DNA from: Pagrus major
Lineage: Eukaryota; Chordata; Actinopteri; Spariformes; Sparidae
Assembly: GCF_040436345.1 (NCBI RefSeq)
Contig: NC_133234.1
Coordinates: 10,416,446-10,480,445, forward strand
Length of the DNA stretch: 64,000 nt
Direction of reading: 5' to 3'
Below, piece after piece: positions 30,895 to 63,218 of this stretch. The translations under genes were made by a program, and so were the position numbers. Below the pieces are notes generated by a model that saw nothing but the letters and a program-made list of their open reading frames with translations, was not told where the DNA came from and did no database searches. Position 1 is the stretch's first letter. Every line of letters begins with the position of its first letter.

Positions 30895-30927
<33 letters not shown>
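30714..30927. repeat. CA and TG/GACA/CA arrays forming an inverted repeat
   Basis: CA array 30714-30744, TG array 30841-30876, GACA tetranucleotides 30876-30896 and CA array 30896-30927. The TG and CA arrays flanking the GACA run are complementary, so this segment can fold on itself. Confidence 0.85.
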
Positions 30928-30929
<2 letters not shown>

Positions 30930-31069
30930 GTTCCTCTCACTTTCAGCCTGACATGAACCTGACCAGAAGCTTCACAAGATTATGACATTTTAATTTGAAA
31001 GGCTTGAAGCCAGTCCACATGTGCAAAAGTCTCATCATGCATAACCTGTCACCCATGGGTCCCCCCCTC

Positions 31070-31640
31070 TCCCCCTGTGAGACCCCACCCAGAGACCCCC
31101 GTGTGCTGCAGCGCCGGTGAAACCCTGCAAACCTGCACTGAGAGCGCCGTGCAGGCAGCGAGGCGCTCCAGCGAGGTGCGCACACGCTGACGGCCGGTGT
31201 GTGAGGCACCGGGCTCGGTCTCACTCGCACCGTTCCCCCCGCTCACCTTCAAACTGAGTCCGGCTCCCGCAGCCCGGCACGGCACGGCACGGCACGGCCC
31301 CGAAGGCTCCCCCCCGGTGAGATGCTCACACGCCGGTCACTTCATAAGTTATCCCTGCCACACATCACGAGGAAGAGTAGTGTCACTATCAGGCTCGAGC
31401 TCCAGATGTTGGCGAGGGCGGTGTTCCCATACAGATGTCAGAAAGCAGCCGAGTGAAGCCTCCGAAGAACACCGGCTCGTCTGCGGCTGTCCGCCCGCCG
31501 CACCGGCTCAGAGTTTCGGTGTGACTGCGGAGCGTCTCCCGGTCTGTCCCCGCTGCTGCTGCTGCTGCTGCTGCTGCCGCCGCTGGGTGACAGGACACAG
31601 ACCGAGGAGGACCGACTGACTGGGCCTCACAGCCCCGCCT
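31070..31640 (-). promoter_or_regulatory. rhbdf1: CpG-rich segment, candidate rhbdf1 promoter and non-coding first exon
   Basis: A GC- and CpG-rich block in otherwise AT-rich DNA, containing a GCACG run (about 31277-31297) and a CTG/CAG trinucleotide run (about 31552-31577). On the minus strand a strong donor, TTTGAAG|gtgagc, ends at 31247, which suits a 5'UTR exon spliced to an acceptor just upstream of the rhbdf1 ATG. A plus-strand CAG|gtaaca at about 31665 is an alternative, so the direction of transcription is inferred. Its position upstream of rhbdf1, facing away from the globins, matches the orientation of RHBDF1 next to the alpha-globin locus in mammals. Confidence 0.42.
31552..31577. 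repeat. CTG/CAG trinucleotide run in the CpG-rich block
   Basis: About eight CTG units followed by GCCGCCGCTG. On the minus strand, the presumed direction of rhbdf1, it reads as CAG repeats within the putative 5'UTR exon. Confidence 0.85.
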
Positions 31641-31919
31641 AGCGGTGACACCGAGCACCTGCAGGTAACAGAGAGCATCCTGTTAAAATCTGAGGGCTCG
31701 TTGTAATTATGAGCTTTTACATAATTGAGTAGTGACAAAGACTAGACGTCCCATCTGGTCTGAATGTTGTGTCATCTGTTCACTGTGTTTTCGTTATTAA
31801 ATACACAAACAGCTGCTGAAGAAAATGAATACAAGCTAATGTCACAGGGGTGTAAATCCCCCCCCCCCCCCCAAAAAAAAAACTTTTTTTTTTAAATATA
31901 AAAAATATTATTTGTCCCC

Positions 31920-35240: not shown

Positions 35241-37315
35241 TTCTGATAAGAAGAAGTAAAGGAATTATTAGGGACTGTATGAACATTATGGGGGAGGTTG
35301 TGGGGATTTTTGTGCGTTTGTTTGTTTGTTTGTTTTCTGCTCACTGACGGTTGGTCTAAATTTTTTGAGGGAGCGGCTTCTAACAAGGTTTTTCAGCCCA
35401 AAGTATAACACCGTTGGTATCACGTGGCATCTGCGATCAACAGTTTCTACAGTTTGCACATTTTTTTTGGTGTTTTGACGTGAATCCAGTGAAGGTGCGA
35501 GACGGGGCACCTCATTTAGAGGCTGAATATTATCAATAACACCTTTTAATTATTGCTTCATTTAAAAATGACATTTTCCATGTGGAATGTTTCAAAGGGC
35601 GGGTGTGTTTTGAAAGTCTTCCTGCCAAAAAGCAATGTTTGAGTGTGTACGCTGTGTGCGTGTGCTGGTGTGTAGAAGAGTTGAGTGCATGGGTGTGTGT
35701 TGTGTTTCCTGAGCTGAGCAGAGCGACCGCGTTTCCTCCCGCTGCCTGTTCGGTTGCAAGTTGCTCGGTTACATGCAGCACCGCCGTGCCGCTTTAAAAT
35801 CTCTTGCTGGAGGCCAGGACAGGATGCTGTACTGGCAAAAGAAATGGGCCCATACATGGGAGGGACTGGGCCTCGGCTTCTATACTGGTGAGTCACCAGT
35901 AAAGACAGGAGGAAACCGCCTGTGCTCAGGTCGAGTTTCTCTGGTGGTTTGGTGCATTTTTGTTCCAGTTTTAGATTATTCTGCTGCAGTCGTACTTCAT
36001 GTCTGGCAGGAGTTTAAGCTGATTCCCTCATGCTTACACATGCACACCAGCGTCTGCCCACATGCAGTTTCTAAACACTATTTGCTTTGCTCTTTGTTGT
36101 GTTGCACGCTGAGTGGGAGTGACATTACGTGCAGGACATACAGAGAACTGCTTCCCTTTTGTAAAAACTGATTACAATGCGTAGCTGCAGGAAACGAGCT
36201 TTAAGGATAATCAGCCAGGGCAGGAAACAGGCGAGAGTTGCAAAAGGTGGGTTTCATGCCTTAGGATGCTTTTATACACCTAATTAAGGATATGATTATC
36301 CGTTTCAAACTGCCGTCTCTGATCCTCACTGTTATCGTATGGAAACAGTTTTTTAAAAAGTGCAGAGGGTTTAGCACAATAAAACTCAGGAACTAATTAA
36401 AATAACTAACCACTCTGGTTGGTTACATTAAAAAGGCCCATGAGGACCGCATGGACCTTTGTATCTAAAGCTTCTTCAGGTGATATAACACACAAACATA
36501 TAACTGACTTTATCCTAAAGTCTGTATCCCTGTGTGTCAGTGTAAAAGAGTTGGAGGGCTGCAGTTTCAGTTGAGCTTTGCTTTTAGCAATGAAAAAATA
36601 TATACAATATCTATTCCAGCATCAGAATATCATGACAAAAGTCCTGTGGTGTTAAAATGAACAGTGTTTAACCATCATCCTTTACCTTATAGCTCCATCT
36701 TGTGGAGTAATAAAGGAACTATGTTTGTGATGTGAGGTTTCTTTAGGTGTGATCTGATAACCAGACCGCTTTTTCAGTTTGTTGTTTTCCTGCTGATTGT
36801 CTTTCTCACTTCTGTGTTTCTTTAATTCTTAATTGAAAACAGTAAATTATTTCAAACAGCTAGAGACTCTTCTTCTTAATTCTTCTTTTTCTTGTGATTA
36901 AGAGAATAAATATTCATGGTCTCTTGATGAAACATATCCTCAACAGCAGAATAATGCACTGTGCTGGATGGTTATCAAGGACTGTGATGTATTATACTGT
37001 ATGACGATCCTGCATTTCATTAATACACACAGGGGTCACAGAGGCTGGTTAGCTTTCAGGTCTAAATGTGTTTTTCAATTAAAACATATTCCGTATTTTT
37101 CATTTTGGCTCAGTGTAAATCGCTAAAGTCGGTTAATCCGGCCCTGGTTGGAGCAGATAAATGATGTGGAGCTGTTTGTAATAAATAAAATGAAGTACAC
37201 ACAACGACATCTGGTGTGTGGATTTATGAGATTTACGTACGACTACACCACCTGCTGCACATCAGGATATATATGTACAGTATGTACAGCAAAGAAATGG
37301 GTAATACCAATAACC

Positions 37316-37943
37316 TTAAAGGAGCACTATGTAGTTTTTTAATGATATTTTTTATTATTAGGACAGCAGTTAATATAAGAAGACAAATATGCATACAAAG
37401 TCAGTTTAAACTCTTCTGCAGTCGTCACTTTGTAGTTATGAGGAAGAAGTTAAAGATCTCTGCTCCAGGTGAGGCTTGAACTCACAACCTCGGCATCACT
37501 CTGCAGGTTACTGTCTTATAAGTACCGCGCGCTGACCGATTGCGCCACTGGAGCTTCTTTCACTCAGTTGTCACTTATCACACAATCACAAAAAAATGAA
37601 CTTCAGATTTACTCTTCCACAGTTATATGAATGAATATATAATATGCATTTTAATATTTACAATATTAATGAGGTAATAATACAGACTCAGAGATATTTA
37701 TTTTCTCCATAACTGAATAAACAAGCTGTTCTCAGAAGAATATAAGGTCCCCAGAACACTGTTTGAAGCTAGAAAGGTGGCAGGGTCCGCCACATATAAA
37801 CAAAGTAAAACAGTATGAAATTGTGTTGTCCTTTAAGGTCAATTTGTTTATTCAGTTTGTTGAGGCATTTAAAAAATCAGTCAATGAAGATCTTTCTCTT
37901 CTGATTAAAATGTCTTTCCCTAAAACTACATAGCGCACCTTTA
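37316..37943 (-). repeat. Family-A MITE interrupted by tRNA-bearing DNA
   Basis: Left terminus ttaaaggagcactatgtagt at 37316, right terminus actacatagcgcacctttaa ending at 37943, body in reverse orientation from about 37640. The first ~20 bp and the body are separated by about 300 bp that does not belong to the family and contains the tRNA-Ile gene 37461-37554. Confidence 0.7.
37461..37554 (-). tRNA. tRNA-Ile(UAU), intron-containing, inside a family-A MITE
   Basis: 94 nt with an intact acceptor stem, D arm, TAT anticodon, 20-nt intron and T arm (GTTCAAGCC, a variant also seen in functional vertebrate copies). The gene lies inside an interrupted inverted-repeat element (37316-37943), between the left terminus and the body. 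It forms an inverted pair with the plus-strand copy at 38147, about 590 bp away. Confidence 0.92.
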
Positions 37944-38146
37944 ATATGCCAATGATACTATCACCCACCAACCACAGTACAAGAATTCAAGTCATTAAAA
38001 CCCAGCTCTACTTTAAAACATAACTAATATACCCTAAAACACACTGTAACTGTAGACTACACTACAGTTAAACAGTTATACTTAACTCGTTTAATTAAAT
38101 GTCAAATCTCACAGCCAGTTTAAATGAGGAACTTCACAAACAACAG

Positions 38147-38240
38147 GCTCCAGTGGCGCAATCGGTCAGCGCGCGGTACTTATAAGACAGTAACCTGCAG
38201 AGTGATGCCGAGGTTGTGAGTTCGAGCCTCACCTGGAGCA
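38147..38240 (+). tRNA. tRNA-Ile(UAU), intron-containing
   Basis: 94 nt. The acceptor stem pairs perfectly, the A-box region (TGGCGCAATCGG) and B-box (GTTCGAGCC) are intact, and there is a TAT anticodon followed by a 20-nt intron. The 3' flank (gttttaccatg) is shared with the copy at 39078, suggesting that the two arose by local duplication. Confidence 0.94.
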
Positions 38241-38398
38241 CAGGAGTTTTACCATGGTGGGTAAAAACAATTCTGTAACTGGCAGCTCTGAATGATCCCA
38301 AGAGTCCGATATGTTGAGATAAACCCAATAATCACACCACTCACTAACTAGAGTGACTAAATTACTCAAACAAAGACAATAGGCAAAAACTCCTCTGA

Positions 38399-38695
38399 TT
38401 AAAGGTGCATTATGTAGTATTGGGGAAGAAATTTTAATGTCTAAACAATCTAAATAAACAAACTTTCTTTGTTTTCATAACTGAATAAACTGAATAAACA
38501 AACTGATCTTAAAGGACAACACAGTTTAATACTGCTTTACTTTGTTTATATGTGGCGGACACTGCCACCTTTCTAACTTTAAACAGTCATCTGGGGACCT
38601 TATTTTCCTCTGAGAACAGCTTGTTTATACAGTTATGGAAAAAATTAATATTTTTGAGTTTGTATTATTACCTTGTGTGTGTGAGATTGAAAAAA
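38399..38695 (+). repeat. Family-A MITE, 3'-truncated
   Basis: Left terminus ttaaaggtgcattatgtagt followed by the forward body (tttatatgtggcggacactg). The right terminus is missing after about 38675. Confidence 0.75.
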
Positions 38696-39077
38696 ATCTG
38701 TAAATAATGGATCCCATGACTCAACCAACAGTCAATCAAATCCCCAGTGGTCAAGAAATAAAATGGTAAATCTTGATCATCACACAGTTTGATGATTGTA
38801 CTACTTTGACCACTAAAAAGGCATTATGTACCACCTACCTGTATGTTTAGATTGTCACTTGGAAGTCTCAAAAGTAAATCTCTGCAACTGCTGAACTAAC
38901 AAGTTTTAAGTTTTGAGTGCAAACCTGCTCAACACATTACAGCAGCTCTAATGCGTACTGCTCTTGTCATGTTAATCAATGGTGAGAGTCACTGAGACCG
39001 ACTGACTGAAGCATTGTTTCCTTTCAACAGACTGTCAACAGTGTGAGGTTATCAAGGTAGTGAACTGGTCTTACAGA

Positions 39078-39171
39078 GCTCCAGTGGCGCAATCGGTCAG
39101 CGCGCGGTACTTATAAGACAGTAACCTGCAGAGTGATGCCGAGGTTGTGAGTTCGAGCCTCACCTGGAGCA
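39078..39171 (+). tRNA. tRNA-Ile(UAU), intron-containing
   Basis: 94 nt, identical by eye to the copy at 38147 and in the same orientation, 931 bp downstream of it. All stems, the TAT anticodon and the 20-nt intron are intact. It is followed by the same gttttaccatg flank and then by a truncated third copy at 39354. Confidence 0.94.
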
Positions 39172-39353
39172 GGCAAGTTTTACCATGTTGAAGTCCAGCA
39201 TCATAATTTACTTCAGTAGTAGTAGAGAGTAGCATAAAACAGGAACAGTCAAGTAAAGCGCAAGAAGAAAAGAGAAACTGCTATCAAAACCCATATGAAT
39301 TTACCCTGAAATAGAAACTGTGGGATTAGAGATGGTGAGTCTGTGCCGCTGCG

Positions 39354-39404
39354 CTAACCTGCGGGGTGATGCTGAGGTTGTGAGTTGGAGCCTCACCTGG
39401 AGCA
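39354..39404 (+). pseudogene. tRNA-Ile(UAU) 3'-half fragment
   Basis: Matches the intron and 3' half of the neighbouring tRNA-Ile genes (intron end, anticodon 3' strand, T arm, CTGGAGCA end) with several substitutions, including the T loop (GTTGGAGCC). The 5' half with the D arm and anticodon is missing, so it cannot make a tRNA. It looks like a decayed third member of the local tRNA duplication. Confidence 0.75.
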
Positions 39405-39789
39405 GCAGACTTTTACATCCAGCAGGTGAGATCATTTACCAACATGTTAAAAAACTGAGTTAGGCCGGTGAGCATCTTCAGTGTGAACGTGAAGGTGTCA
39501 TTTTTAGCAAATATTCAACATTAAAAGTCCATTTCAGTCAAATAAATTGTAATTTGTTTTTCTTTTGTGAAAATGACAACTGTGAAAATGTGTTTCATAT
39601 GTACATTACCTTCAAAATACTATAATTAGTTAAACAGTTTGATTACTGTAGATACAATAACAGAGTAAAAATAGAACAGAAAACTGATTCTAGCTTTTTT
39701 GGGGGGGGGGGGGTCTACTTAAAAAACTTCATTTCAGCTGTGAAACCAGGCGACCACATGGGACAAAAGGCATGACTGCATTTTTTGAG

Positions 39790-40300
39790 GACATGATATA
39801 GCCTCTTTATGCTGAGTCAACCTTCATCTCCACTGGGTATCAGCTGAAAGCTCTGGTGATGCGTTCAAGAGATCAACCTGTGTATCCCTGTGACGGATGT
39901 AAACATTATGGCATATAAGGGTGGAGGGAGGTTGTGCAAGGTCACTCTAATGACTGTAAAGCCTTCTGGAGGAGATGTGATAACCTAAACTGGCACAGAC
40001 TTCCAACTCTCTGCCACCTGGAGCTTTGACTCTCTCTTACTGCAGAGACAACCTACTCATGAAATTCTTCTATTTAATCTGACATAATCTAATTTATAGT
40101 CATCTACTCTACTATAGTCTCAACTGAGTGGTGTCACAGGAGCTCCTCTGCATAATGCTGTCAGTACAAGTGCATGAAGAAATGACCCACGCTGTGTAAA
40201 GTCCTCTGTGTCGCAGCTCGACGGCCCTAGCAGTAGTCTATCTGATGCAGGCTGGCTTCACGCCCGCTGTCCCCTGACCAACAGCTTATGGAGCTGCAGA
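39790..40300. promoter_or_regulatory. Candidate erythroid enhancer (NF-E2/MARE plus GATA motifs)
   Basis: A perfect NF-E2 consensus TGCTGAGTCA lies at 39810-39819, the only one found by eye in the window. TGATAT at about 39794, a reverse TGATAC at about 39838, TGATAA at 39978-39983, an AGATAG near 40295, a CCACCTGGAG E-box at about 40013 and CACCC-type GGAGGG runs are nearby. It sits 1.3-1.8 kb upstream of the first globin gene, in sequence without a recognised repeat. Known biology: NF-E2, GATA1 and E-box/TAL1 sites together mark globin locus control elements. Enhancer activity here is inferred from motifs only. Confidence 0.4.
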
Positions 40301-40407
40301 TAGAGTTTATCTGAAGAAGGCCTCAAACACACATATAGTGTAGTCATGAAGCCTCTGACTCATATTTAATCATTTTTCCTCCTTGTCATGGTGGAGAAAA
40401 AGACATT

Positions 40408-41043
40408 TTTAAAGGAACATTTCACTTAAAAGTGAAAATTCAGTCATTATTGACTGACCCCCGTGCCGACTGGAAAGTCGTGGAAAGTTTCAAAGTCCTC
40501 AAAACATTTCTGGAGCTTCGCTGCAAAACAGCATTGCAGCATGTTCCTGAACAACTCAAGTAGATGGGGACTTGTTTTAAGACATAAAAAAACAACCAAA
40601 ACAAAACATAAAATGGATCCATACAGCTCGTCTGGGTAATTCAAATCTCTGGAAGCCCTGAGATCCCAAATTAATTTCAAAAGAGCATGGTCTTGCACCC
40701 ACTTCAGACTGGGTGTGTGCTAATGCTATTAGCTAAGCAGCTACAGTGAAGAAAAAAGGGTGTAAATAGCATCTTTTCAAATCAGTTTGGTATCTCAGGG
40801 CTTCCCAAGACTTGGATTACACGAGACAAGCTGTAAAGAGTCATTTTATGGTTTTGTTTCACTTGTTTTTTTACGTTTTAAAACAAGTCCCCATCTACTT
40901 CAGTTGTTTAGGAAAATGCTGCAACACTGTTTTGCTGTGAAGCTTCAGAAATGCTTGGTGGACTCGAGACTTCATCCAGGTTTCCATCAGCATGAAGGTG
41001 GATAATGACTGAATTTTCACTTTTGGGTGAAGTGTTCCTTTAA
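40408..41043. repeat. Family-C inverted-repeat element, full length
   Basis: About 636 bp with long inverted ends: ttaaaggaacatttcacttaaaagtgaaaattcag at the left pairs with ctgaattttcacttttgggt...gttcctttaa at the right. The two arms repeat further inward (tgttttaagacataaaaaa against ttacgttttaaaacaagtc), so it is a fold-back element. It lies about 500 bp upstream of the first globin gene. Confidence 0.7.
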
Positions 41044-41559
41044 AAAAAAAAATGCAAAGACAGTTTTAAGGGCTGCAGCTGTAGGCAATCATAGCTCAAG
41101 GAAATAATGAATTGTCCTTATTTAAACATGAATATTTGTATGTCATTTTAGCAATCATCCAGCAGATATAGCACTTCAACCTGCTGAAGAAAAATCCACA
41201 TAAACAACAAGAAGTGGCACCTAAAGGTCCAGCAGCACTTTGAGGTCAGCAGCCTCATGAATGATGTAGAAATACCAGCGTGACGCACGTTCAGCAGCAG
41301 ATAGCGCAGTGGAGTGGAGCCCCCACCCTGTCCTGGCTGTAGACCGATAACAGAGGAGGGAAACAACACCACCATTTCACCACGTTTTCTCCAGACAGGG
41401 ACAGAATTATTACTTCATCTCATTCACTCTCCATCCGTCTCTGCGTTAATGTGTTCATTCAAAATGGTTGATTGACACCTCTTACGCACATATTGACGGC
41501 GCCTGCTGTGAATCTGACTTAGACCTCGGCTGTGAAGTCGTTTCACATCTCCGGCTGCA

Positions 41560-44500
41560 ATGCTCTCAAAGAGGGAGAAAGATCTTATTAGAGAAATATG
41601 GACGAAACTGATTCCTGTGGCAGAAGATATCGGGTCTGATGCGCTTACTAGGTAGGTCCACAAGATGTTTCCAAAATAAAAACTTTACAGACTGTTCAGC
41701 AGCAAGTCTGGTGTGTGTTTATACATGTTCAAGGGGCACTGTGTAGTTTTGTAGAAGAAATTCAAACTCAGAATTTTAATATTTACAATATTAATGAGAC
41801 AATAATACAAACTCATACATATTTATTTTTTCCATAACTGAATAAACAAGCTGTTCTCAGAGGAAAATAAGGTCCACAGAACACTGTTTGAAGCTAGAAA
41901 GGTGGCAGGGTCTGCCACATATAAACAAAGTAAAACAGTATGAAACTGTGTTGTCCTTTAAGGTCAGTTTGTTTATTCAGTTTACTCAGTCATGAAAACA
42001 AAGAGAGTTTGTTTATTTAGTTTGTTTAGGCATAAAAAAAAATCAGTCAATGAAGATCTTAAAATGTCTTCCCCAAAACTACGTAGTGCACCTTTAGGGC
42101 CTCCAACGAGATCTTAATCTCAGCTCTCCAGTTACAAAACCCAAGCAAATAAACGTGCCTATGAAGATAGGCCCCAGTGACCCTTTATTAATGACTTAAT
42201 CAAAATGTGTGACTAAAAGACTGATGCTTTTTTACCTTTATCAATATGTTATTGGCACTTATAACCTGAGACTTGATGTCCACACTGCAACAAATTACAA
42301 CTAAAACACAAGAAATAAACACTTTATTAAAGGATGAGTTCACCCAAAAATGAAAAAAATCAGTCATTATCAACTCCACTCATGCCAATGGAAAGTCAGG
42401 TGAAGTTTCGTAGTCCACAAATCATTTCTGGAGCTTCACAGCAAAACAGCTTTGCAGCGTGCTCCTAAACAACTGAGGTAGATGGGGACTTGAATTAAAA
42501 AGTAAACAAACTACCGATGTTTAAATGAGTGTAATGCTGGTGCGTGACTCTGAACTTGAGATAGTGTTTTAGATGCTGGCAGCGATCCAAGATCAGTGAC
42601 ATGTTCAAATGAGTTCACACTGATGATGACGATGATGATGATGGCAGCAGAAGGAGTGGTCAAAATCAATCTCCATGTCTCACCTTCTCTGATCATTAAT
42701 AAAGTTTTTGTATTTCAAACAGAAAAGTGCCTTAATGTCAGTGATGGAAGAAGTATTTAGATCCTTAACTTAAAGGTGCACTACGTAGCTTTAGGGAAGT
42801 CATTTTAATCAGAAGAGAAAGATCTTCATTGACTGATTGTTTATGTCTAAACAAACTAAATAAACAAACTCTCTTTGTTTTCATGTCTGAATAAACAAAC
42901 TGACCTTAAAGGACAACACAGTTTATACTGTTTTACTTTGTTTATATGTGGCGGACCCTGCCACCTTTGGTTCAGTTATGGAAAAAATAAATATTTCTTA
43001 GTTTGTATTATTACCTCATTAATATTGTATAATTGAAATTCTGAGTTTGAATTTCTTCTCCAAAACGTCATAATGCCCCTTTAAGTAAAAGTACCACACT
43101 ATGAAGTATTATCAGCAAAATTTGAAGTATCCAACGTAAAAGTAGTCATTGTGCAGTAAAATATTCCCTGTCAGTGTTTTACTGTTATATCTGATATTTT
43201 TGGATTAATATAACTGTGTATTTTTCATTTTACCTTTGTTGATGTTCAAGGTTGAGCATATTTTAAAGGAGCTTTATGTATAAATTTGTAGTGATTTAGC
43301 AGTATTAATCACTTTTTTTAATTTCCATATATGAGCAGATCGTAGCGTGATGTCTCTCTCAGTTGCCTATACAAGCCTGTAGATGCTAACAGAGAGCGGC
43401 AGTAGCTGAAGTAGCTTAGAGGTAGAAACAGCAACTAACAACAAGCTTCCAGTACAAACAAAGAAGTTTCCCAGAGCCCCTTTAATTACTTTATATACTT
43501 ATATTTATACTTAGTTAAATCTACAGCAATACATCTATAATAATCTATCAGATCATCATGTGTTTGTTGTGTTGTTGTCCAATGAGAACCACATATCTCT
43601 TAACAAGTGAACTATTCATGAGCTCAGAAAAACTGTGTTTATCCAGGAACACTTAACTCTTCAGTTTATCACAAACAATCAAATGTTTGGGGAGACATGG
43701 TTTCCACTGGACAGGAAGGTTATGAATAAATGTAATCTGAAACTTGAACTCAAAAGCTGTCGGACCAATGTTTTGGAGTACAAAGCACAATATCTAAAAG
43801 TACAAGTACCTCAAATTTGTACTTAAGTACTTTAGTAAATGTATTTAGTTACATTCCACCAGTGTTAATTGCAGTTGAAATCCTGATTCATTCATCTCAA
43901 TGTCACTTTTCCCGTCATCTCTTCCACAGGATGTTTGCCACCTTCCCAGGCACCAAGACGTACTTCTCCCACCTGGACATCAGCCCTCGCTCCGCTCACC
44001 TGCTCTTTCACGGGAAGAAGATCGTTCTGGCCATAGCAGAGGGAGCCCAGGACATCGACCAGCTGGCCGTCAGCCTGGCTCCCCTGCAGACCTTGCACGC
44101 CTACCAGCTCCGGATAGACCCCACCAACTTCAAGGTGCCTTTAACTCCATCCAGCATTGACCCTGCTGATTATCCACACTCATAATGAGGCTCAATTAAT
44201 CACTGCCAGAATGTCCTGGAGGTTTTGTCAATACTTAGAGGAGGTATAGAGTAACAGAAAGTGGAAATACTCAAGTACAAATACCTTAAGTACAATGTTT
44301 GAGCAAATATACCGTTACATTCTATCACCGTCCATTGGAAACACAACGCAAACACTTAGCAGATAAATACTGGCACTCATTTGTCATCTCTACAAGTGTT
44401 TTCATACCTTGATCCTACCATCCTGACATTAATGGTGACCAAGAGCAGCCTGAGACATATCAATGTATTTAAGGCATCATATACAAAAAGCCTACTGGAT

Positions 44501-45123
44501 GGCAGACTGACTTTGTTATAAATACTGCAATAGCACCACCATCTGGTGAGATTATGCACAAGACGCACAGTTCTAAAGAGTGCAAACAATCCTAAATGAC
44601 AGACTTCATCAGCAAAATGAGTGATAAAATGAAAAATCCAGAAAAGTGACGGGGTCACTGTTGAAGCATGGACATGCCACTTGAAGGTACCAGGGTGTGT
44701 TCAGTGTTCCTGTAAACAGAGGACCTGCTCATCAATTGAAAATAAGTCAGTGGTGCTGTTTTGATAGTAGGCCAGTCTCTGATATCTAAAGGTGTAAATA
44801 CAGCACTGACAGAGCGTCTCCCAGGGGTGCAGATCCCAACACAGTGAGGCTCGTATCAGTCACAAGAACAGTATGTGCACATAAAAAACTTTTTAAAACT
44901 TTTTACTGACATCTGAATATGCTTGTTAACCCTTGAACTGTGTACTTGATGAGAATAGTCCTTCATGAGTAACCACCCTGCTCCCTCTCCGCAGCTTTTC
45001 TCCCACTGTATGCTCGTCGCTCTGGCCGCTCACATGGGCGACGACTTCACGCCGGTTGCTCACGCAGCGATCGACAAGTACCTGTCAGCCTTCGCAGCCG
45101 TGCTCGCCGAGAAATACAGATGA
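41560..45123 (+). CDS. hbae5: Embryonic/alpha-D-like haemoglobin alpha subunit
   Basis: Complete three-exon globin of 141 aa: exons 41560-41651, 43930-44134 and 44995-45123 (stop TGA). Splice phases are the globin standard (AG|G in the codon for Arg31, then phase 0 after TNFK). The start [10 protein letters not shown] and the block [17 protein letters not shown] resemble teleost hbae5/alpha-D-like proteins. Distal His58 (FHGKK) and proximal His87 ([10 protein letters not shown]) are present and the protein ends AEKYR. It should bind haem and pair with a beta chain, probably in embryonic or larval red cells (inferred from family). Introns of 2.28 and 0.86 kb are long for a globin: intron 1 carries two family-A MITEs and a partial family-C element. 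The upstream region has CCACCC at 41323-41328 and AGATAG at 41299-41304, but no clear TATA box. The symbol is assigned by similarity from memory. Confidence 0.9.
41731..42096 (-). repeat. Family-A MITE in intron 1 of the first alpha-like globin
   Basis: Both termini present (aaggggcactgtgtagtttt and actacgtagtgcaccttta), body reversed, 366 bp. A stretch of about 40 bp (aaacaaagagagtttgttta) is present that shorter copies lack. Confidence 0.8.
42326..42512. repeat. Family-C element, partial, in globin intron 1
   Basis: ttaaaggatgagttcacccaaaaatgaaaa and aactgaggtagatggggact match the left arm of the element at 40408. The right arm is missing. Confidence 0.65.
42770..43084 (+). repeat. Family-A MITE in intron 1 of the first alpha-like globin, second copy
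   Basis: Termini ttaaaggtgcactacgtagc and cgtcataatgcccctttaa, body forward. It is oriented opposite to the copy at 41731, so the two can pair within the same intron. Confidence 0.8.
43262..43487. repeat. Inverted-repeat element in globin intron 1 (possible)
   Basis: Starts ttttaaaggagctttatgta and ends cccagagcccctttaatt, matching the general TTAAAGG-type termini of the MITEs here. The body is not shared with families A-D. Confidence 0.45.
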
Positions 45124-45229
45124 GACCCAGCCACGTCGTTTTTTTTAGGGAGTATATGAACTATTTATAATGCAGTATGATATTAAGTATTTATATATGT
45201 GTGAATGTTACAATGCAATGTTTTGTAAT

Positions 45230-45248
45230 AATAAAAATGTGCAATAAA
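45230..45248 (+). terminator. Poly(A) signals of the first alpha-like globin
   Basis: Two AATAAA hexamers at 45230-45235 and 45243-45248, 107-125 nt after the stop codon. They are followed by a T/GT-rich stretch (tgttgttgtgtttt), as expected for cleavage and polyadenylation. Confidence 0.75.
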
Positions 45249-45649
45249 CACCTCTCCTGTTGTTGTGTTTTATGTGTCTTACATATGTTTTTATTGCATT
45301 AATTGACAAAATGACGTCCTGCTGACCATTCTGACATCACACCATGAGTCATCAGGTTGATTGTAGTCAACATTTCTGAGATATATGTTGTAATTTTTTT
45401 TTTTTTTTTGCTCCAATATAATCAGCTTACAGCTTTAGTTTCCACTTTAAAAATTACAATTGTTACACAGACATATGAAGGGCTTGTTCTTTCATTATGT
45501 TCCCCTACTAAATGTTAGATAGCACTACTGACATGTACTACATCACCCTGTGTCTCTAAAAGGCCTGATCAGCCGCTGTATATGTCCCCCCTAAACGTTT
45601 GTTAGGTTCAGGGTTAGTTTATTTAGAGACGCCCGCAAAGCTCAGATTA

Positions 45650-45965
45650 TACCTTGAACCCTGGATGTAATGTTGACCATGTTTACCATCTCAGTTTAGC
45701 CTGTTAGCATGTTAAATTTACGCTAGTACGCATAAACCAGAAGCTCAGATCATTGTGATTGTCCTTAGTTAAGCAGGTATTTAGTCATAAAACTAATACT
45801 AGTTGACATTTTGGGCGTCACCAAATATAACACATATAATCCTCAGAGGAATATGAGTGTCTGCACCAAATTCCTTTCCATCCAATAGTTGTTGAGATAT
45901 TTCAGAAAATTGTTGGACCGACTGACGGACCAGCATTACCATGTTTAGAGCCAGGCTGTCACCAC
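45650..45965. repeat. Dispersed fish repeat fragment
   Basis: Carries accatgtttaccatctcagt, agcctgttagcatgtt and ccatccaatagttgttgaga. The first part resembles 838-960 and the last part resembles 11.94-12.05 kb, so these fragments probably belong to one longer element in opposite orientations. Confidence 0.5.
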
Positions 45966-47637
45966 GGGCTGATGTCCAAAGTTAATGCTGTTAATCTTCA
46001 GTTATTGCTGGAGTTCTCCATTTTACCATACCATATACTTCATGAACATCCATTAGATGGGATGGGATTGGATAAGATGGGTGGGGGATGGAGGGTTTGT
46101 ATTAAGGGGTGGGTAAGAATTCACTTTGCTGATGAAAGATTGTATTATTTAATGTTACAACATTTTACCAAGCGGTGGCGCTGTTGCAGCATTTATAAAC
46201 ACAATCAAACAAATACAGTCGAAGTGTTTCTCTGGTGCTGAAATAAAATTGTGACAAAAAGTGATCCAGCTCTGGTGCTGAAAGACGCCGGCGTGAGTGA
46301 GATCAGAGCTGTTCCTGATGCCTAAATACGTGCACCTGCATGGATGCACCCATATCAACACCAATACCTGACTCACTTTGAGTAGTGTAACTAACAGAGC
46401 TTTCTGTGACGCTGAACTCAAGCGACATCAAATGTGGAGCTGTCTGTGGTGCTAAAATAAAATGGAAATTTAATGTGGAGCTGTCTGTGGTTCTGAAATG
46501 AGATAAAATGAAATACAGAGCTGTTACAGGTGCTGAAAGAGGTCAAATTTAATGTGGAGCTGTGTGTGGTGATGAAATGCAACAGACAGCTGATGTTTCT
46601 CAAGGTACTATAGGAATGAATCCATAGACAGAGGTAATAGTCACACACTGTTTGCTGATGCCTCTTCCTCTGTCATATGACTCCCCCTGCTGGTTTCAAT
46701 AAGCAGCTGCACAGTGTTTCTGGAGCACTGCCTCACAGCCTGCTTGCTGGAAAAAAGACCTCAGGCCAGTCTGAGTGGGCGGGGCCAAGAGGTCACATCT
46801 GAGATCGTTCATCCAATCAGCTGTAGATACTAAGCCTGCCAGTATTTCTGTCTTTGAGCTCTTTTTTTTAATTCCTGTTTCTATTATTATTTTTACTATT
46901 TCTGACAGTTTCAGAGACAAATTGTTACAATAAAATGATTAGAAATGTACTTGGCTTGTGTTGAAGTTGTTTTATCTTCTATATTTGATATCATACGTGG
47001 ACACCAGTAACAACTGTGACGGTCAATCTATGTTTTTCAAATAAGTCATTTATATAAAATCATAACTACAAACACGTGACATGGCAAACAATACTCTCAT
47101 ACGTCCTGGTTTCTGCGTCTGTTTGGAGCTTATCACACTCGTTTGGGTGTAAATTAGGTCATGTCATCCTGTCAGGTGTCCTCATGTCACTCTGACCGTC
47201 ACTCTTCAAACTGAGGCATGGTTGGGTGTCTGAGCTCTTATCTGGTTTGAGCTGCAGCCTGAGATAATACAAGTGCATGATGAGTTCAAGCGTCACATGG
47301 AAAAAGAAGACCTCAGGACTCAGTCAACTCAGCTCGAGATAGCAAAGTCTGAATTTATTATGTCCACTGATGGACTCGGGGGAGATAAAACACGATAGGT
47401 GCCCCTCGTGTAGGCTAAATGCTCGAAACTACATGCTAGCTCATTGTGTAGTTTTATTACAGGGGTGTAGAAGTTATAATTGAATTCTGGTCACATAATG
47501 AAACAATTTTAATATTAACCAGGGTTTGGAGCTGTTTGACCATAAATGCATCACCACTGTCTGCATGCTGCTGCCTTTTTATTTGTTTTTACAGTAATAC
47601 TTTATTGTCAGTAAATATGAGTGTACAAATCATATAA

Positions 47638-47949
47638 TTAAAGGAGCACTATGTAGTTTGGGGAAGACATTTTATCAGAAGAGAAAGATCTTTATTGACT
47701 GATTTTAAACAAACTTAATAAACAAACTCTCTATAAAGGACAACACAATTTCGTACTGTTTCACTTTGTTTATATGTGGCAGACCCTGCCACCTTTCTAG
47801 CTTCAGTGTTCTGGGGACCTTATTTTCCTCTGAGAACAGCTTGTTTGCTCAGTTATGGAAAAAAGTTTGTATTATTACCTCATTAATATTGTAAATATTA
47901 CAATACTGAGTTTGAATTTCTTCTCCAAAACTACATAGTGCCCCTTTAA
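47638..47949 (+). repeat. Family-A MITE, full length
   Basis: Both termini present (ttaaaggagcactatgtagt and actacatagtgcccctttaa), body forward, 312 bp. Confidence 0.8.
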
Positions 47950-48092
47950 GTAGTGCTTGATTAAAACAGGGGTCTTAGTGATTCAATGCGTATATTAATG
48001 TCATTAATTCTTGTTGAAAATGATACTTCACATATTAAATGGTACACGACCAAATTAATTGGATTCTACTTAGATGGAACTTTATTTCAGAC

Positions 48093-48094
<2 letters not shown>

Positions 48095-48188
<94 letters not shown>
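48095..48188. repeat. AT dinucleotide array, 94 bp
   Basis: Uninterrupted AT repeats. Long AT arrays are prone to cruciform extrusion, slippage and assembly error, so the true length may differ. Confidence 0.95.
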
Positions 48189-48191
<3 letters not shown>

Positions 48192-48357
48192 CTCAGCCTC
48201 TCTGAAAGTAGAACCATTCTCAAAGAAATTACCAGCTTTTCATTTTTTTAAATCAAACTAGTCGTCAGGTGCAAACATTTACATACAACATTTAAATACA
48301 GTTAAGTATAATAAAAATAGACTTTAACTAAAATCCAGCTATTTTAGTTTGCATATC

Positions 48358-48387
48358 GATAGATAGATAGATAGATAGATAGATAGG

Positions 48388-48459
<72 letters not shown>

Positions 48460-48468
48460 TAGATAGAT
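48358..48468 (+). repeat. GATA/GACA tetranucleotide array
   Basis: About 110 bp of GATA repeats with one GATAGGTA interruption and an internal GACA block (about 48438-48458). It directly abuts a LINE-type 3' tail. Confidence 0.9.
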
Positions 48469-48500
48469 ACTTTATTGATCCCGAGGGAAATTCAAGAAAA
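48465..48500 (-). mobile_element. LINE-type 3' tail adjoining the GATA array
   Basis: atactttattgatcccgaggg then aaattc is, on the minus strand, the ending ...gaatttccctcgggatcaat followed by aaagtatctatc. I recognise this as a common teleost non-LTR retrotransposon 3' end whose tail is the tetranucleotide repeat. The 5' part of the element is not identifiable, so it is a severely truncated insertion. Confidence 0.6.
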
Positions 48501-49517
48501 GACTAAAACAGACACGTAACAGACGAGCTACCGAAAAGGCAGCTACTTGCGTTGGCGCCTGCGCAGATAGATAAGTGTGAACTGATCACATAAAGTCATA
48601 GTAACTTCAAGAGAAGGAATTCATGATAACACCCTGCACGAAGTCATCCCCAGTCATGTATTAATGAATCCAGGTGTCTTTTACATTTTGGGGACGCTGC
48701 GTTCCCACCACTTTTTGAAATGGCCAATTTTGCCCCCATAACTTTTTCTTTTCTTTTTAAGCATACATTGTTAAAAAATATTCTGAAAAATGACTTGCAC
48801 CAAGAAATGTTGATAAAATGAGAACAGCTGACTCTGAACTGAACCGGGGATGTATAGTAATATTGGCATTGTTTGATTAACATGCTGTTGTAGATGTAAA
48901 GGATGACTGTTACTTGGTCGGTCAACATTATTGTTATATTTTTGTACTGCCGACTCTGTGGTGCAATTCTTCTCCCGCCTTATTATCTACCCTGACCATA
49001 CTGATCTCCACATTTCATTGCGCAAATCATATTAAAGACACTGGTGCCCCCATGTTCAAAAACATTACCACTGCGCAAGTGCCCTCTTGGATGTGAGAAT
49101 GGTAGATAAACACATAATAAAGTGCCCTCTAGGGCGCCCCACCCCAAAGCCACAGCTGGTGCCCAAATAATGTTTTGCCCCTACCCCACAAACATCCTGA
49201 ATCCGCCACTGGTTAAATATCATTTAAAAAATGTCTCTTCATCTGAACTCTTATGTCAGCCCTGATGATCTAACACCACCCTAACACCGAGAGTAACTCA
49301 GGAAATCAAAAGCGCTACAGACTCATGTTAGTTGTAGGTCACCATCACTTCATCATTCACTCAATTCATGTCATCATTTGAATAACGTCGAATATCTATA
49401 ATGGCAATTTCTTATACGGGTCTGTCATTTTCAATCAGTACCAGATGGCTGTGCGTAATTACGCACGCGTAAAAGAAAGAAAACGTGGACGACAAATGAG
49501 CTTTACTTCAGTGGGCC

Positions 49518-49527
49518 TTTATTTATT
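49518..49527 (-). terminator. Poly(A) signal of beta globin
   Basis: Overlapping AATAAA hexamers on the minus strand (49518-49523 and 49522-49527), about 80-90 nt after the beta stop codon at 49608. Confidence 0.75.
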
Positions 49528-49607
49528 TTTTTATGGAGGAGACACATAACACATGGAAAACAGAGGTGAGAGCTCCTCCATGTGTCCAGGTGAGGAGGCT
49601 GCTGGCT

Positions 49608-50269
49608 TTAGTGGTACTGCCTTCCCAGAGCAGACACCACCACGGCCAGGAACTTCTGGAAGGTGGCCTGGGTGTCGGCGGTGAAGTCCTTGCCCATCTT
49701 GGCGGCGATGACGATGGTCAGGCAGTCAGATAGCAGCTAAGGGAAAAAAACAAACATTAGATGTCTTGCATATATGTATTCTGTGTCATATTTACATGGA
49801 TATGGAACAACTGCAGTATGAAATCTGGCGGGTTTATTTTACTTTGAAGTTGTCGGGGTCGACGTGCAGCTTCTCGGAGTGCAGCACGCTCAGCTCGGCG
49901 TAGGTGGCCTTGATCTTGTCCATGTTCTTCACAGCCCGGTCCAGGCCGTGCAGCACCGTGATGCCGTGGGCTGCGATGTTCGGGTTGCTCTTGATGGCCT
50001 CGGCGTTGTAGAGGTTACCGAAGGCGCCGAAATACCTCAGGGTCCAGGGGTAGACGATCAGACACCTGGAAGAGGAGAGGAGACGGGGGATGGATTCTGA
50101 TGGATTCTGATGGATGCTGCAGAAGCTGAATCTCAACTTCTGCAACTCATATCTGCTGTATGTCAGGAGGTGTGTACCTGCACAGAGCCTTGGGACCGAT
50201 GTCCTCATAGTCCAGGTTGGAGAAGATGCTGTTGATGGTGCTGAGCTCCTGCTCGGACCACACGACCAT
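49608..50269 (-). CDS. hbb: Haemoglobin beta subunit
   Basis: Complete three-exon beta globin of 147 aa: exons 50178-50269, 49843-50065 and 49608-49736 (minus strand). The 92, 223 and 129 nt exons and their phases are typical of beta globins. It starts [11 protein letters not shown] and ends ALGRQYH. Distal His64 (AAHGITVL) and proximal His93 ([13 protein letters not shown]) are present. Ser94 (F9), Glu95 and the C-terminal His are the residues linked in the literature to the Bohr/Root pH response of fish haemoglobins. The usual Gln of PWTQRYF is Leu here (PWTLRYF), an unusual change near the subunit interface. Introns are short (112 and 106 bp). A TATA-like TTAAATAG and three GATA motifs lie upstream. 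It is head to head with the alpha gene at 52829, the classic teleost pair. The paralogue name is not resolvable. Confidence 0.96.
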
Positions 50270-50352
50270 GGTGGATGTTGTTTGATTTGTTTTTCGCTTA
50301 GAGGAAAAAAAGAAAATAAGCTGAATAGTGAGTCAACTCGAACCCCAGGGGT

Positions 50353-50432
50353 CTATTTAACCGCGCCACAGCTGCTCCCGCCCTGAAGGAGAGGTCAGCT
50401 GTGATAGGCTGGAGATAAAGGGTGTGAGATAA
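50353..50432 (-). promoter_or_regulatory. Beta-globin promoter: TATA-like box, GC/CACCC box, three GATA motifs
   Basis: On the minus strand, TTAAATAG at 50353-50360 lies about 85 nt upstream of the ATG, fitting a 5'UTR of about 55 nt. Further upstream are a GGGCGGGAG box (about 50378-50386) and three WGATAR sites on the plus strand at 50402-50407 (TGATAG), 50413-50418 (AGATAA) and 50427-50432 (AGATAA). GATA1 clusters are typical of erythroid promoters. The element faces the alpha gene, so it could also serve the divergent pair. Confidence 0.7.
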
Positions 50433-50886
50433 CGTCACACCTCCGTCAGAAGTATCTGGAATATTTTTGATATTGTTTCAGTAATATTTCAGATTTAACT
50501 TGAACAGAAAGCAGTTAATTAGGCGATCTGCACGTTAATTGGGATACATTTAATTTACTGTCACAGGTTCTTGTGCAGCTGCAAGTTTGAACTCTTTCTT
50601 TAAGTCATTTTCTTTGTATTATTAAATCAAATGAATCATCTACATAGGTACAACTTCACACGAGGACTCTTTTCTAAATTGTAGTTTTCCAGTTTTTAAG
50701 ACGTTATCCTTGTGAAAATCTCTCCAGAGTTCGTCCGGCTCCTGTTAAGCTGCAGGATTGGGCTTGATTTCAGCAATCAGGACAGTAACTGTGCCCTGAA
50801 CTCTCTCCCTACTGTAACTGAGGGTCTTTTGGCTCTCTTATTTTATTTAATCAGTTATTGCATTTAAAGCAGCAGCTTTTCAGTCA

Positions 50887-51185
50887 TTAAAGGGGCACTA
50901 TGTAGTTTTTGGACAAGAAATTCAAACTCAGAATTTCAGTGTTTTGAGGTTTTATATTAATGAGGCCATAATACAGACGCAGAAATATTTATTGTTTCCG
51001 GAACTGAGTGAACAAGCTGTTCTCAGAGGAAAATAAGGTCCCCAGAAGCGAAGAGTGGCGGGGTCCGCCAAATTTCTTTTTTAAAGTATGAATTTGTGCT
51101 GTCCTTTAAGGTCAGTTTATTTATTCAGTCATGAAAATGAATAAAAATTATTTATTTAGTTTGTTTAGACATTAATTAACTGTTG
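50887..51185 (-). repeat. Family-A MITE, partial, in the beta-alpha spacer
   Basis: Left terminus ttaaaggggcactatgtagt and a reversed body. The right terminus is missing after tttgtttagacattaa. Confidence 0.75.
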
Positions 51186-51312
51186 ATTGAGTGTGTCTGA
51201 GTGTGAACTATGCACGACCATTTTGTTTATGGTGAGCAAAAGGAATTCATGATATATTCTGCATTATTACATGTATTTAATCAGCATGAGCCATGTTTAG
51301 CTCAAGCACTAC

Positions 51313-51659
51313 TTAAAGGGGCACTATGTAGTTTTAGAGAAGAAATTCAAACTCATTTTAATATTTACAATATTAATGAGGTAATAATACAAACTCAGAA
51401 ATATTTATTTTTTCTGTAACTGAGTAAACAAACTGTTCTCAGAGGAAAATAAGGTCCCCAGAACACTATTTGAAGCTAGAAAGGTGGCAGGGTCCGCCAC
51501 ATATAAACAAAGCAAAACAGTATTGTGTTGTCCTTTAAGGTCAGTTTGTTTATTCAGTTCATTCAGTCATGAAAACAAAGAGGGGTTGTTTATTTAGTAT
51601 GTTTAGGCATACAATAAGATATTTTTCTTCTTCCCCAAAACTACATAGCGCACCTTTAA
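51313..51659 (-). repeat. Family-A MITE, full length, in the beta-alpha spacer
   Basis: Termini ttaaaggggcactatgtagt and actacatagcgcacctttaa, reversed body, 347 bp, in the same orientation as the copy 130 bp before it. Confidence 0.8.
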
Positions 51660-52670
51660 GGGACCGTATTGATATCCATCAGTCATTATTGGTTAAATTA
51701 GCACATGTGTTATTTTATTGAAAGCAACAGAAAACCTGTCATTGGACAATATGCAAACATATTTTAATAAACACCCACCACCACCCTAAATAAATAAATA
51801 AACAGCTTTTATCAGCACTATGCTTGAGTAACAACAGTTACAACAATCCTAGTTTCCAATAAATTATAATAAGTGTGTGTGCTATGAGACCAGATGTCAG
51901 ATGTCACTGCCAGGCGCTGTGACAGTGTTTGGTGCCAGTGTGTGCGTTATCTGTGGAACCACACCGGTGTTATCTGCAGCAGCGCCCCCTCCCCGCCCAG
52001 ACACCCACTGCCAAAACTCACATATGTTTTGATTAAGAAAATACTTGAGGCTGGTGATAAAGCTGCTGACCGCTATTTCGCCCCCTTGATAGGAAAAAAA
52101 AAATTAATGGCCGGAGCCAAGAAATGCCGAATTAAAAAATAAATCACTGATAAATCCTGGAGGGCTTTCACAGCTGCAGATTTATAGACTTAATTAGGCT
52201 TTTATTTTGTAGGACATTTTCATCGAGCGAAGGCCGTTTGTTTGTGGAACAAAAATGTCGAAATAAATAAATGTTTTCGTCTGTTTGATGATGAAGCAGA
52301 ATGTGCTTTCGACTGATTTGTTGTATCCTTAGATGACCCCTCGTTTTTTTCCGACTTATTGCTTTAAACGTTTTGCGAAAATTGTGTAAATCAAATAAAA
52401 AAAACTAAACTAAAATATTAGAAGTAAGTTCATGAAAGTGACTGCTCCGAGCCAAGATCGTCATTTCTTGAAATAAAGTCTTGCATATGTCTTTGTCGAC
52501 AATTATTACGATCTGTTTCTCAGGTCAGGTTTGGTGATATTAACCCTCCAGCCTGTGACCTGAGATGCCCTCCGTCACCTCCCCAAACTTCTACTAACAG
52601 ACCAGGGGTGAGGACTCTTACACATTACTCGAGCTGATTCATGCCAACTAAAGCCCCCGATGGGAGCAGC

Positions 52671-52774
52671 TGATAGCGCCCCCCAGGCTGGCATCAGGCC
52701 ACCTGACCTGCGTCAGCCGAGTTGGCTTGGCCTCCCTGGCCGTGGGTGTGACTCTCCAGCCAACTGAATTTAAG
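52671..52774 (+). promoter_or_regulatory. Alpha-globin promoter region
   Basis: Upstream of the alpha ATG at 52829 are TGATAG (52671-52676), an inverted CACCC box (GGGTG at about 52743-52747), a CCAACT at about 52759-52764 and a weak TATA-like AATTTAAG at about 52767-52774, 55-60 nt before the ATG. The order is typical for globins, but the TATA match is poor, so the start site is uncertain. Confidence 0.45.
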
Positions 52775-52828
52775 CAGAGGCCCGACCCTGAGATGACCAT
52801 CCGATCCAGGTGCAAAGAAAGAACCAAG

Positions 52829-54736
52829 ATGAGTTTGACTGAGAAAGACAAGGCTACCGTCAAGGCCCTGTGGGCCAAAATCTCCAAGTCGGCTGATGCT
52901 ATTGGGGCTGACGCTCTTAGCAGGTGAGTAGTTTATGGCGCGCTTTTACTTAATGTAGCTATTCACTTATTTTACAGCCGTTTAGCTGTTTGTTTAATTG
53001 AGGAAATATAACGCCTATCACTGATATTAACGTGATATTCTTGCATCAATTTTATTTAAATGTTTAGTTTCTGGTGCAACAAATTGAATGCAACCAATCT
53101 AAAGGAGCACTATGTAGTTTTGGGGACGAAATTCGTTTTGATGACTGAATAAACTGAATAAACAAACTGACCTTAAAGGACAACTCAATTTCATACTGTT
53201 TTACTTTGTTTATATGTGGCGGACCCTGCCACCTTTCTAGCCTCAAACAGTGTTCTGGGGACCTAATTTTCCTTTTGAGAACAGCTTGTTTACTCACTTA
53301 TGGAAAAAATAGATATTTCTGAGTTTGTATTATTACCTCATTAATATTGTAAAACTCTGAGTTTGAATTTCTTCCCTAAACCTACGTAGTGCCCCTTAAA
53401 TAAAAAACAAACAAACACGAGAGATAAACCTGTCTAAAAGTTCAAGATTGAAAACTAATCTGCTCTTAATCTACATTAAAAATTATGTTTAATTATCACT
53501 TAATCTGTTGATTACTTTCTCGATTAATCGATTTGTTTTTTGTCTATAAAATGGTGGAAAATCTCGATCACTGTTTCCCAAAGTCCAAGATGACGTCTTC
53601 AAGAAACCAGAAAAGATTCACATTTAACAAGCTGGAATCAGAGAATTTTGAATATTGTTTTTCCTTTAAAAAATTACTCAAAACGATTAATTGATTATGA
53701 AAATAGCTGTGGATTAATTTAATAGGTGACAAATAAACAGTTAGTCGTTGCATCTACTCATTTTAATGCAAAGTAGCTCATGTGAATCTTTAATGAAAGC
53801 ACAAATGTATACAATTGATTTTTTAATGGAGCGTCGTCATTCATTCACGTCAACGACCAAAGAACAGCTCGTGCTCCAGGTGAGGCTCGAACTCACAACC
53901 TCGGCATCACTCTGCAGGTTACTGTCTTATAAGTACCGCGCGCTGACCGATTGCGCCACTGGAGCGCCGTCTGTGTCAATATCAATGCAGATCAACCATT
54001 AAACGTCGTAACATTAGCGAGACAGCAGTAAACCATGTGTCATTGGTCTCCTCCTCCACAGGATGCTCAGCGTCTATCCGCAAACCAAGACTTACTTCTC
54101 CCACTGGCCGGACCTGAATCCCGGCTCTGCCAGCGTCAAGGCGCACGGAAAGAGGGTGATGGGTGGAGTCGCCCTGGCTGTGTCCAAGATCGACAACCTG
54201 ACCCAAGGCCTGCTGGATCTCAGCGAGCAGCACGCCTTCCAGCTGAGGGTGGACCCCGCCAACTTCAAGGTGAGACGGGGGTCGTCTGACATCACGTAGA
54301 CCTACATTATGATATGGTCGTACAGTGTAGGATATGTGCCGTGGATCTGGATCTCACCGATATGACTGGTTTACGCACAAATGACGCACTCACGCCGCAG
54401 AAATTGCAGCTTTAAGATCTTAATTTCTTTGTTTTCCAAAACTGATTAACCAGTTTTGTGATGCTGGCCTTGGAGCATGTTCTGCACTACATTTGCATTT
54501 TAGATTTTAATGGGAGGACAGCGGAAATAACCGAACTTTTTCCAATTCAAGTTATATAAACTAAACCATATATATTTTTTGATCCAATTATTTCCCGTCA
54601 TCCGCAGCTCCTGTCCCACTGCATCCTCGTGGTCATCTCCGTCAAGTTCCCCCAAGACTTCACCCCAGAGGCCCACGTCGCCTTGGATAAATTCCTGGTC
54701 GCCTTGGCCCTGGCTCTCTCTGAGAAATACCGCTAG
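52829..54736 (+). CDS. hba: Haemoglobin alpha subunit
   Basis: Complete three-exon alpha globin of 143 aa, the usual teleost length: exons 52829-52923, 54062-54269 and 54608-54736 (stop TAG). It starts [15 protein letters not shown], and exon 2 contains [14 protein letters not shown]. Distal His60 (KAHGKR) and proximal His89 ([10 protein letters not shown]) are intact, and the C-terminus is LSEKYR. It forms the alpha half of the haemoglobin tetramer and shares a divergent intergenic region with the beta gene at 50269. Splice sites are AG|gtgagt...cacag|G and AAG|gtgag...cgcag|C. Intron 1 (1138 bp) is far longer than is usual for a fish alpha globin because it holds a family-A MITE (53100-53400), a family-D repeat (53485-53757) and an antisense tRNA-Ile gene (53872-53965). 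Adult-type expression is inferred from sequence type only. Confidence 0.97.
53100..53400 (+). repeat. Family-A MITE in alpha-globin intron 1
   Basis: Termini taaaggagcactatgtagtt and cctacgtagtgccccttaaa, forward body (ttgtttatatgtggcggacc), 301 bp. Confidence 0.8.
53485..53757. repeat. Family-D dispersed repeat in alpha-globin intron 1
   Basis: ttaatctgttgattactttctcgattaatcgatttg at the left and acagttagtcgttgcatcta at the right are inverted ends. The interior aagtccaagatgacgtcttc and acatttaacaagctggaatc match the family. Confidence 0.6.
53872..53965 (-). tRNA. tRNA-Ile(UAU), intron-containing, antisense in alpha-globin intron 1
   Basis: 94 nt with an intact acceptor stem, D arm, TAT anticodon, 20-nt intron and T arm (GTTCGAGCC). 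It lies on the opposite strand inside intron 1 of the alpha-globin gene (intron 52924-54061), only about 100 bp before exon 2. A Pol III gene in this place would be transcribed against the Pol II globin gene. Confidence 0.94.
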
Positions 54737-57059: not shown

Positions 57060-57174
57060 TGATGCTCCTTTGATTTCTGCCTGGATGAGACTTCTGTTGG
57101 CTCTGCAGCTCCACCTGCACCTGCACTGGACTCAGTGTGTGGACAAAGTCAAGTGTGCTGCGAGGTGTTGCGGT

Positions 57175-63008: not shown

Positions 63009-63218
63009 CTGAATTCACAGCAAATTGAACATATATCATCCAGCGCATGATGAACCTGACTGGAGTGAAAAGTTATCATTTATTTTCAGTCTTCACTGTT
63101 TTTCTACTCAACAAAGCAAGTTTTTATCAGGATTAAAGGCCACTAAAGATACTAGTTGTTTATTGTTTTGTTGGGTCAAAACTTTCAGGATAATGAGAAA
63201 ATGAGTCCAAATTTGAAT

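Follow-up and report, generated by a model that had tools for sequence, protein, structure and literature searches.

The isoacceptor tRNA-Ile(UAU) is encoded in mouse by four tRNA-Ile(TAT) genes (PMC11065635), a number that fits the view that vertebrates usually carry few genes for it. All four mouse genes have an intron; three of the four mature sequences are identical and the fourth is one nucleotide off. We describe a family of the same isoacceptor, likewise with an intron in every full-length member, in a 64,000-nt stretch of the Pagrus major genome (contig NC_133234.1, positions 10,416,446 to 10,480,445; the window). Unlike the mouse genes, which have four unique introns, four of the five genes found here share one intron, and four lie within 17 kb.

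The surroundings of the family also have a described counterpart. In accounts of the teleost LA globin cluster (PMC7307600, PMC2975663), alpha- and beta-globin genes are placed between aqp8 and rhbdf1, as they appear to be here, but these descriptions, as far as available, do not mention tRNA genes inside the cluster. The word ‘tRNA’ does not occur in the main text of PMC2975663 or PMC7379720, and occurs only in the methods or references of PMC7307600 and PMC13011446; the literature searched, to which most subscription journals do not belong, yielded no account of tRNA genes lying within the globin cluster of a teleost.

In zebrafish and stickleback, tRNA genes commonly form multi-copy clusters, and 65% and 87% of them, respectively, are clustered (PMC2888827). 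The multi-copy family described here is thus ordinary in kind, given how commonly tRNA genes are clustered in some teleosts. It differs in layout: zebrafish tRNA pairs are mostly heterogeneous and parallel (PMC2888827), whereas here a single isoacceptor occurs in both orientations, at irregular spacing, between and within protein-coding genes. The nesting of tRNA genes in introns of protein-coding genes is known from Caenorhabditis elegans (sup-7 and others, including opposite-strand cases; PMC4999229); here the host is a vertebrate globin gene.

Our reading of the locus, held with good though not full confidence, is that its nuclear tRNA-Ile(UAU) genes are ordinary and form a small family, copied locally and kept uniform. 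Locally dispersed, near-identical tRNA genes are a known kind of arrangement, and this one is real but probably ordinary. Short DNA segments carrying a tRNA gene would have been copied within the repeat-rich globin locus, and the copies would have been kept uniform by recent copying or by gene conversion. Each full copy, with its own A and B boxes, would be transcribed by RNA polymerase III (Pol III) and, after splicing, would decode AUA codons; the copy nested in a globin intron would be carried there with little effect on splicing.

Five tRNA-Ile(UAU) genes and one fragment

Genes for tRNA were called in the window with ARAGORN and with the Rfam tRNA model (cut-off 29 bits). Exactly five were found, all tRNA-Ile with anticodon TAT. 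ARAGORN placed them at 8672-8766(-), 37461-37554(-), 38147-38241(+), 39078-39171(+) and 53871-53965(-). A BLAST search of the window with the 38147 copy yielded six tRNA places at E 4e-16 or better, the sixth being a fragment; the other matches listed have E of at least 0.051 and were taken as chance, so that no further tRNA fragments were recognized in the window. The copies are as follows (T4 stands for a run of four Ts; positions with a plus sign are counted downstream of the gene).

8673-8766, minus strand: intact tRNA-Ile(UAU) gene, on the same strand as the iRhom-type coding sequence and upstream of it; T4 terminator at +7
37461-37554, minus strand: full-length tRNA-Ile(UAU) gene, inside an interrupted element with terminal inverted repeats (TIR element); first TTTT at +271
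38147-38240, plus strand: intact tRNA-Ile(UAU) gene; T4 terminator at +7
39078-39171, plus strand: intact tRNA-Ile(UAU) gene, the same as 38147 at all 94 nt; T4 terminator at +7
39355-39404, plus strand: 3′ fragment (pseudogene) of a tRNA-Ile(UAU) gene, 50 nt, 92% identity, 5′ half absent
53872-53965, minus strand: tRNA-Ile(UAU) gene, also the same as 38147 at all 94 nt; lies antisense in the first intron of an alpha-globin gene

All five full-length copies score 55.2 bits with the Rfam model, which is covered in full (positions 1-71), and all five have intact A and B boxes and an intron of 21 nt. The mature tRNA (73 nt) is identical in four copies; the odd one is 37461, with a single substitution, G to A in the B box/T-loop, which still matches the B-box pattern used. 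The intron is also identical in four copies, with 8673 deviating at 3 of 21 positions. The 39355 fragment fails the A/B-box test, its B box being broken. The original prediction, made from the sequence without database searches, had named five structurally intact, intron-containing genes and one 3′ fragment at these places. ARAGORN, the Rfam model and BLAST bear it out, and low covariance scores, which it had given as a sign against itself, were not seen.

The cloverleaf was not the lowest-energy single-strand fold in any of the three pre-tRNAs folded (z −1.58 for 38147, −1.99 for 8673 and −2.43 for 37461; the other two equal 38147), a question better put to the covariance model; the 39355 fragment gave z 0.36. 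Viral contigs contained no perfect match to the tRNA's first 38 nt.

Flanking sequences and the mode of copying

We compared the surroundings of the five copies at two scales: 400-bp flanks by BLAST at E 0.05, and the 30-nt 5′ and 3′ flanks pairwise (ten pairs). The 400-bp flanks gave no match between copies except where neighbourhoods overlap or hold the dispersed TIR element. At the shorter scale, all ten pairs of 5′ flanks agree at 6 to 11 of 30 positions. The 3′ flanks of 8673, 38147 and 39078 match each other at 18, 17 and 13 of 30 positions, as against 3 to 10 positions in the remaining seven pairs. This short 3′ trailer, common to the three copies with a T4 terminator, is the only similarity of flanks beyond the TIR element and the overlap. 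Because the flanks are unrelated apart from the trailer, the copies are best described as dispersed and near-identical and not as a recent block duplication.

Identical introns next to unrelated flanks leave two routes: a unit scarcely exceeding the gene was copied recently, or older copies underwent gene conversion. The comparison with mouse leads the same way: since each of its four genes has an intron of its own, the introns shared here suggest a recent common origin or conversion.

A copied unit that barely exceeds the tRNA gene, together with one copy (37461) that sits within another mobile element, would also fit if the copies were a tRNA-derived short interspersed nuclear element (SINE) or another retroelement dispersed genome-wide. 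A tRNA-derived SINE is recognized by a tRNA-related head joined to a shared unrelated body and tail, by target-site duplications and by a high copy number across the genome. Around the copies in the window we found no shared tail, no A-rich tail and no encoded CCA, and beyond the tRNA and its short trailer there is no common body. No target-site duplication beyond chance was found at the copies, and the repeats in their flanks are at chance level. A retroposed mature tRNA would have no intron and would bear CCA; here cloverleaf, A and B boxes and intron are intact. Judged on the window, the copies are not the SINE-like dispersed repeat that the original prediction had listed as its possible undoing, and we regard a retroelement origin as highly improbable.

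Several observations weigh against a family of ordinary, locally copied genes or blunt its details. Clustering is not universal in teleosts, pufferfish and medaka tRNA genes being mostly isolated (PMC2888827). A single genome does not separate recent copying from gene conversion. The flank repeats that might betray the mechanism are only at chance level (the longest words in common are of 4 to 7 nt, chance P 0.07 to 0.98). Finally, the bodies of 37461 and 53872 are intact even though no TTTT stands near them, which may mean that both are in use.

The element interrupted by a tRNA gene

A dispersed element with inverted ends (TTAAAGG.GCACTATGTAG), ∼300-370 bp long, has 12 listed places in the window, nine of them at 33-54 kb (33335-53403). 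The first introns of the two alpha-globin genes contain it, that of the first gene twice. One of its copies contains a tRNA gene:

37315-37945, no strand assigned: TIR element, resembling a miniature inverted-repeat transposable element (MITE), interrupted; an insert of ∼310 bp holds the 37461 tRNA gene

Both ends and the core of this element are present, and the insert separates the left end from the core; the left end (22 bp) we infer to belong to the same interrupted element. Nine of ten other aligned copies are continuous at the insert point, and the tenth, 38397, stops short of it. As the element is uninterrupted in every other aligned copy that reaches this point, the 37461 tRNA gene most likely entered after the element. 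Within the 310-bp insert a 35-nt word of the element end matches at 25 of 35 positions (largest value in 300 shuffles, 21); the insert may therefore consist of two pieces, with a tRNA piece nearer 190 bp.

A general association of the tRNA genes with the TIR element is not claimed. From a tRNA gene, the nearest of the 12 listed copies is on average 1044 bp away, compared with 2521 bp at random over the whole window (P 0.07) and 688 bp at random within 32-55 kb only (P 0.90).

Terminators and predicted output

A T4 terminator at +7 follows three of the five copies (8673, 38147 and 39078). Downstream of 37461 there is no TTTT for 270 nt, and downstream of 53872 none for 168 nt (first at +169), with TTCTT at +8 of the latter; within 50 nt of these two copies there are only words of the TTCTT or TCTTT type. 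Pol III genes with no oligo-T nearby may terminate poorly. Terminator status is thus likely to rank the copies by output, short of demonstrating output. On this ranking 8673, 38147 and 39078 are likely to be working genes, 37461 and 53872 are probably transcribed weakly or imperfectly, and we take the 39355 fragment to be dead.

The copy nested in an alpha-globin intron

The first intron of the second alpha-globin gene (52924-54061, 1138 bp) contains the 53872 gene, which runs antisense to its host, on the minus strand. It is separated from exon 1 by 948 bp and from exon 2 by 96 bp. The same intron carries a TIR element of ∼300 bp. This antisense nesting is the most unusual feature of the family. 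The original prediction is silent on it, as it is on the interrupted element around 37461 and on the two copies that lack a T4 terminator nearby.

The position raises the question of a link with the host locus. In C. elegans an intronic tRNA gene is governed by the host promoter, and intronic tRNA genes on the opposite strand carry more Pol III than same-strand ones (PMC4999229); in mouse, expression of the tRNA-Ile-TAT genes varies by tissue (PMC11065635). These precedents lend some plausibility to the idea that the globin-locus copies are a dedicated source of tRNA-Ile(UAU) for red cells, driven by open erythroid chromatin or by the host globin promoter. However, the intronic tRNA genes of C. 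elegans carry less Pol III than the remaining ones (PMC4999229). The nested copy itself has no TTTT before +169, and there are no AUA codons in the hosting alpha-globin gene, none in the beta-globin gene and three in the other alpha-globin gene. With AUA so rare in the three genes, a role in globin supply is not favoured, and we would give it only a slim chance. It is even less probable, in our estimate, that the nested Pol III gene ties the output of tRNA-Ile(UAU) to transcription of globin or disturbs that transcription, as an erythroid-linked supply or brake in this fish lineage.

Extent of the clustering

Four of the five copies fall within 16.5 kb (37461-53965), and the 8673 copy lies ∼29 kb from the rest. 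That several copies stand close together, as had been proposed, is confirmed by ARAGORN and the gene coordinates. The proposal that four of the five lie within 17 kb also stands; its addition that this interval includes all three globin genes holds only in part, as the 16.5-kb stretch contains the first alpha-globin and the beta-globin genes whole and ends inside the second alpha-globin gene. The Poisson chance of at least five copies in 64 kb is 5e-13 to 1e-4 under random placement (100 to 5000 genes and 700 Mb, both assumed), a placement that tRNA genes do not follow in genomes.

The globin cluster and its surroundings

Three globin genes were modelled, each with three exons and GT-AG introns, and matches to Pfam families were found on either side of them.

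294-734, minus strand: iRhom N-terminal domain (Pfam iRhom1-2_N, 9.6e-29)
41560-45123, plus strand: alpha-globin gene; exons 41560-41651, 43930-44134 and 44995-45123; 141 aa, open
49608-50269, minus strand: beta-globin gene; exons 50269-50178, 50065-49843 and 49736-49608; 147 aa, open
52829-54736, plus strand: second alpha-globin gene, host of the nested tRNA gene; exons 52829-52923, 54062-54269 and 54608-54736; 143 aa, open
56799-57131 and 61480-61722, minus strand: MIP (aquaporin-type) sequence (Pfam MIP)

Pfam Globin matched exon 2 of all three genes and exon 3 of the first alpha-globin gene; exon 1 of the hosting alpha-globin gene, searched alone, gave no Pfam Globin match. The introns measure 112 and 106 bp in the beta-globin gene and are long in the first alpha-globin gene, at 2278 and 860 bp; the latter gene is strongly diverged from the second alpha-globin gene. 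In the aquaporin-type region, 62799-63014 matched MIP under the family cut-off and 56240-56455 gave no MIP match.

With Globin, MIP and iRhom1-2_N all matched within 64 kb, the locus looks like the teleost LA cluster, in which alpha and beta genes stand between aqp8 and rhbdf1 (PMC7307600, PMC2975663). On synteny we take the MIP genes to be aqp8 and the iRhom sequence to be rhbdf1b. The earlier identification of a globin cluster with an rhbdf1-type sequence on one side agrees with the exon models and with the Globin and iRhom1-2_N matches.

A CpG-rich stretch at 30901-31800 reaches a GC content of 0.66 and a CpG observed/expected ratio of 0.91. It is perhaps the start of the rhbdf1-type gene, in which case the 8673 tRNA gene would lie in a 5′ intron of that gene. 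Between the aquaporin-type exons, 60350-60750 holds an array of a degenerate A-rich repeat in steps of ∼21 bp. Matches of 6132-6425(-) to PDB entries were mostly to TAL-repeat proteins, with no stretch passing alone, and were taken as a composition artefact.

A possible boundary role

TFIIIC and tRNA genes have been reviewed as insulators or enhancer blockers (PMC4584330), and the original prediction had suggested that the tRNA genes, as TFIIIC-bound boundaries, might part the erythroid globin domain from rhbdf1. Such a role is possible in principle: the review gives precedents from yeast to mammals, the A and B boxes are intact in all five copies, and three copies (37.5-39.2 kb) lie between the CpG-rich stretch at 30.9-31.8 kb, the possible rhbdf1 start, and the first alpha-globin gene. 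The copies, however, neither bracket the globin domain nor sit at one edge of it, one being within a globin gene and another near the iRhom-type coding sequence, and two of the five have no TTTT nearby.

Nor does the window offer a mapped enhancer to block, as the globin enhancer motif YGCTGASTCAY (the MRE motif) has no occurrence in it (0.21 expected). This absence says little, because the window spans only part of the rhbdf1-type gene and the enhancer may lie outside; the core TGASTCA occurs 17 times (13.8 expected). The MRE motif has been reported at the other globin cluster of cod (PMC2975663). The arrangement thus lends the suggested boundary no support, and we judge it very unlikely.

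Biological significance

What the locus mainly shows is the dispersal of tRNA genes into a globin cluster, near-identical to one another while their surroundings differ. If their placement proved to be conserved, or the nested copy to be transcribed, the locus would be a ready-made setting for learning how Pol III genes fare inside a very strongly and specifically transcribed RNA polymerase II locus.

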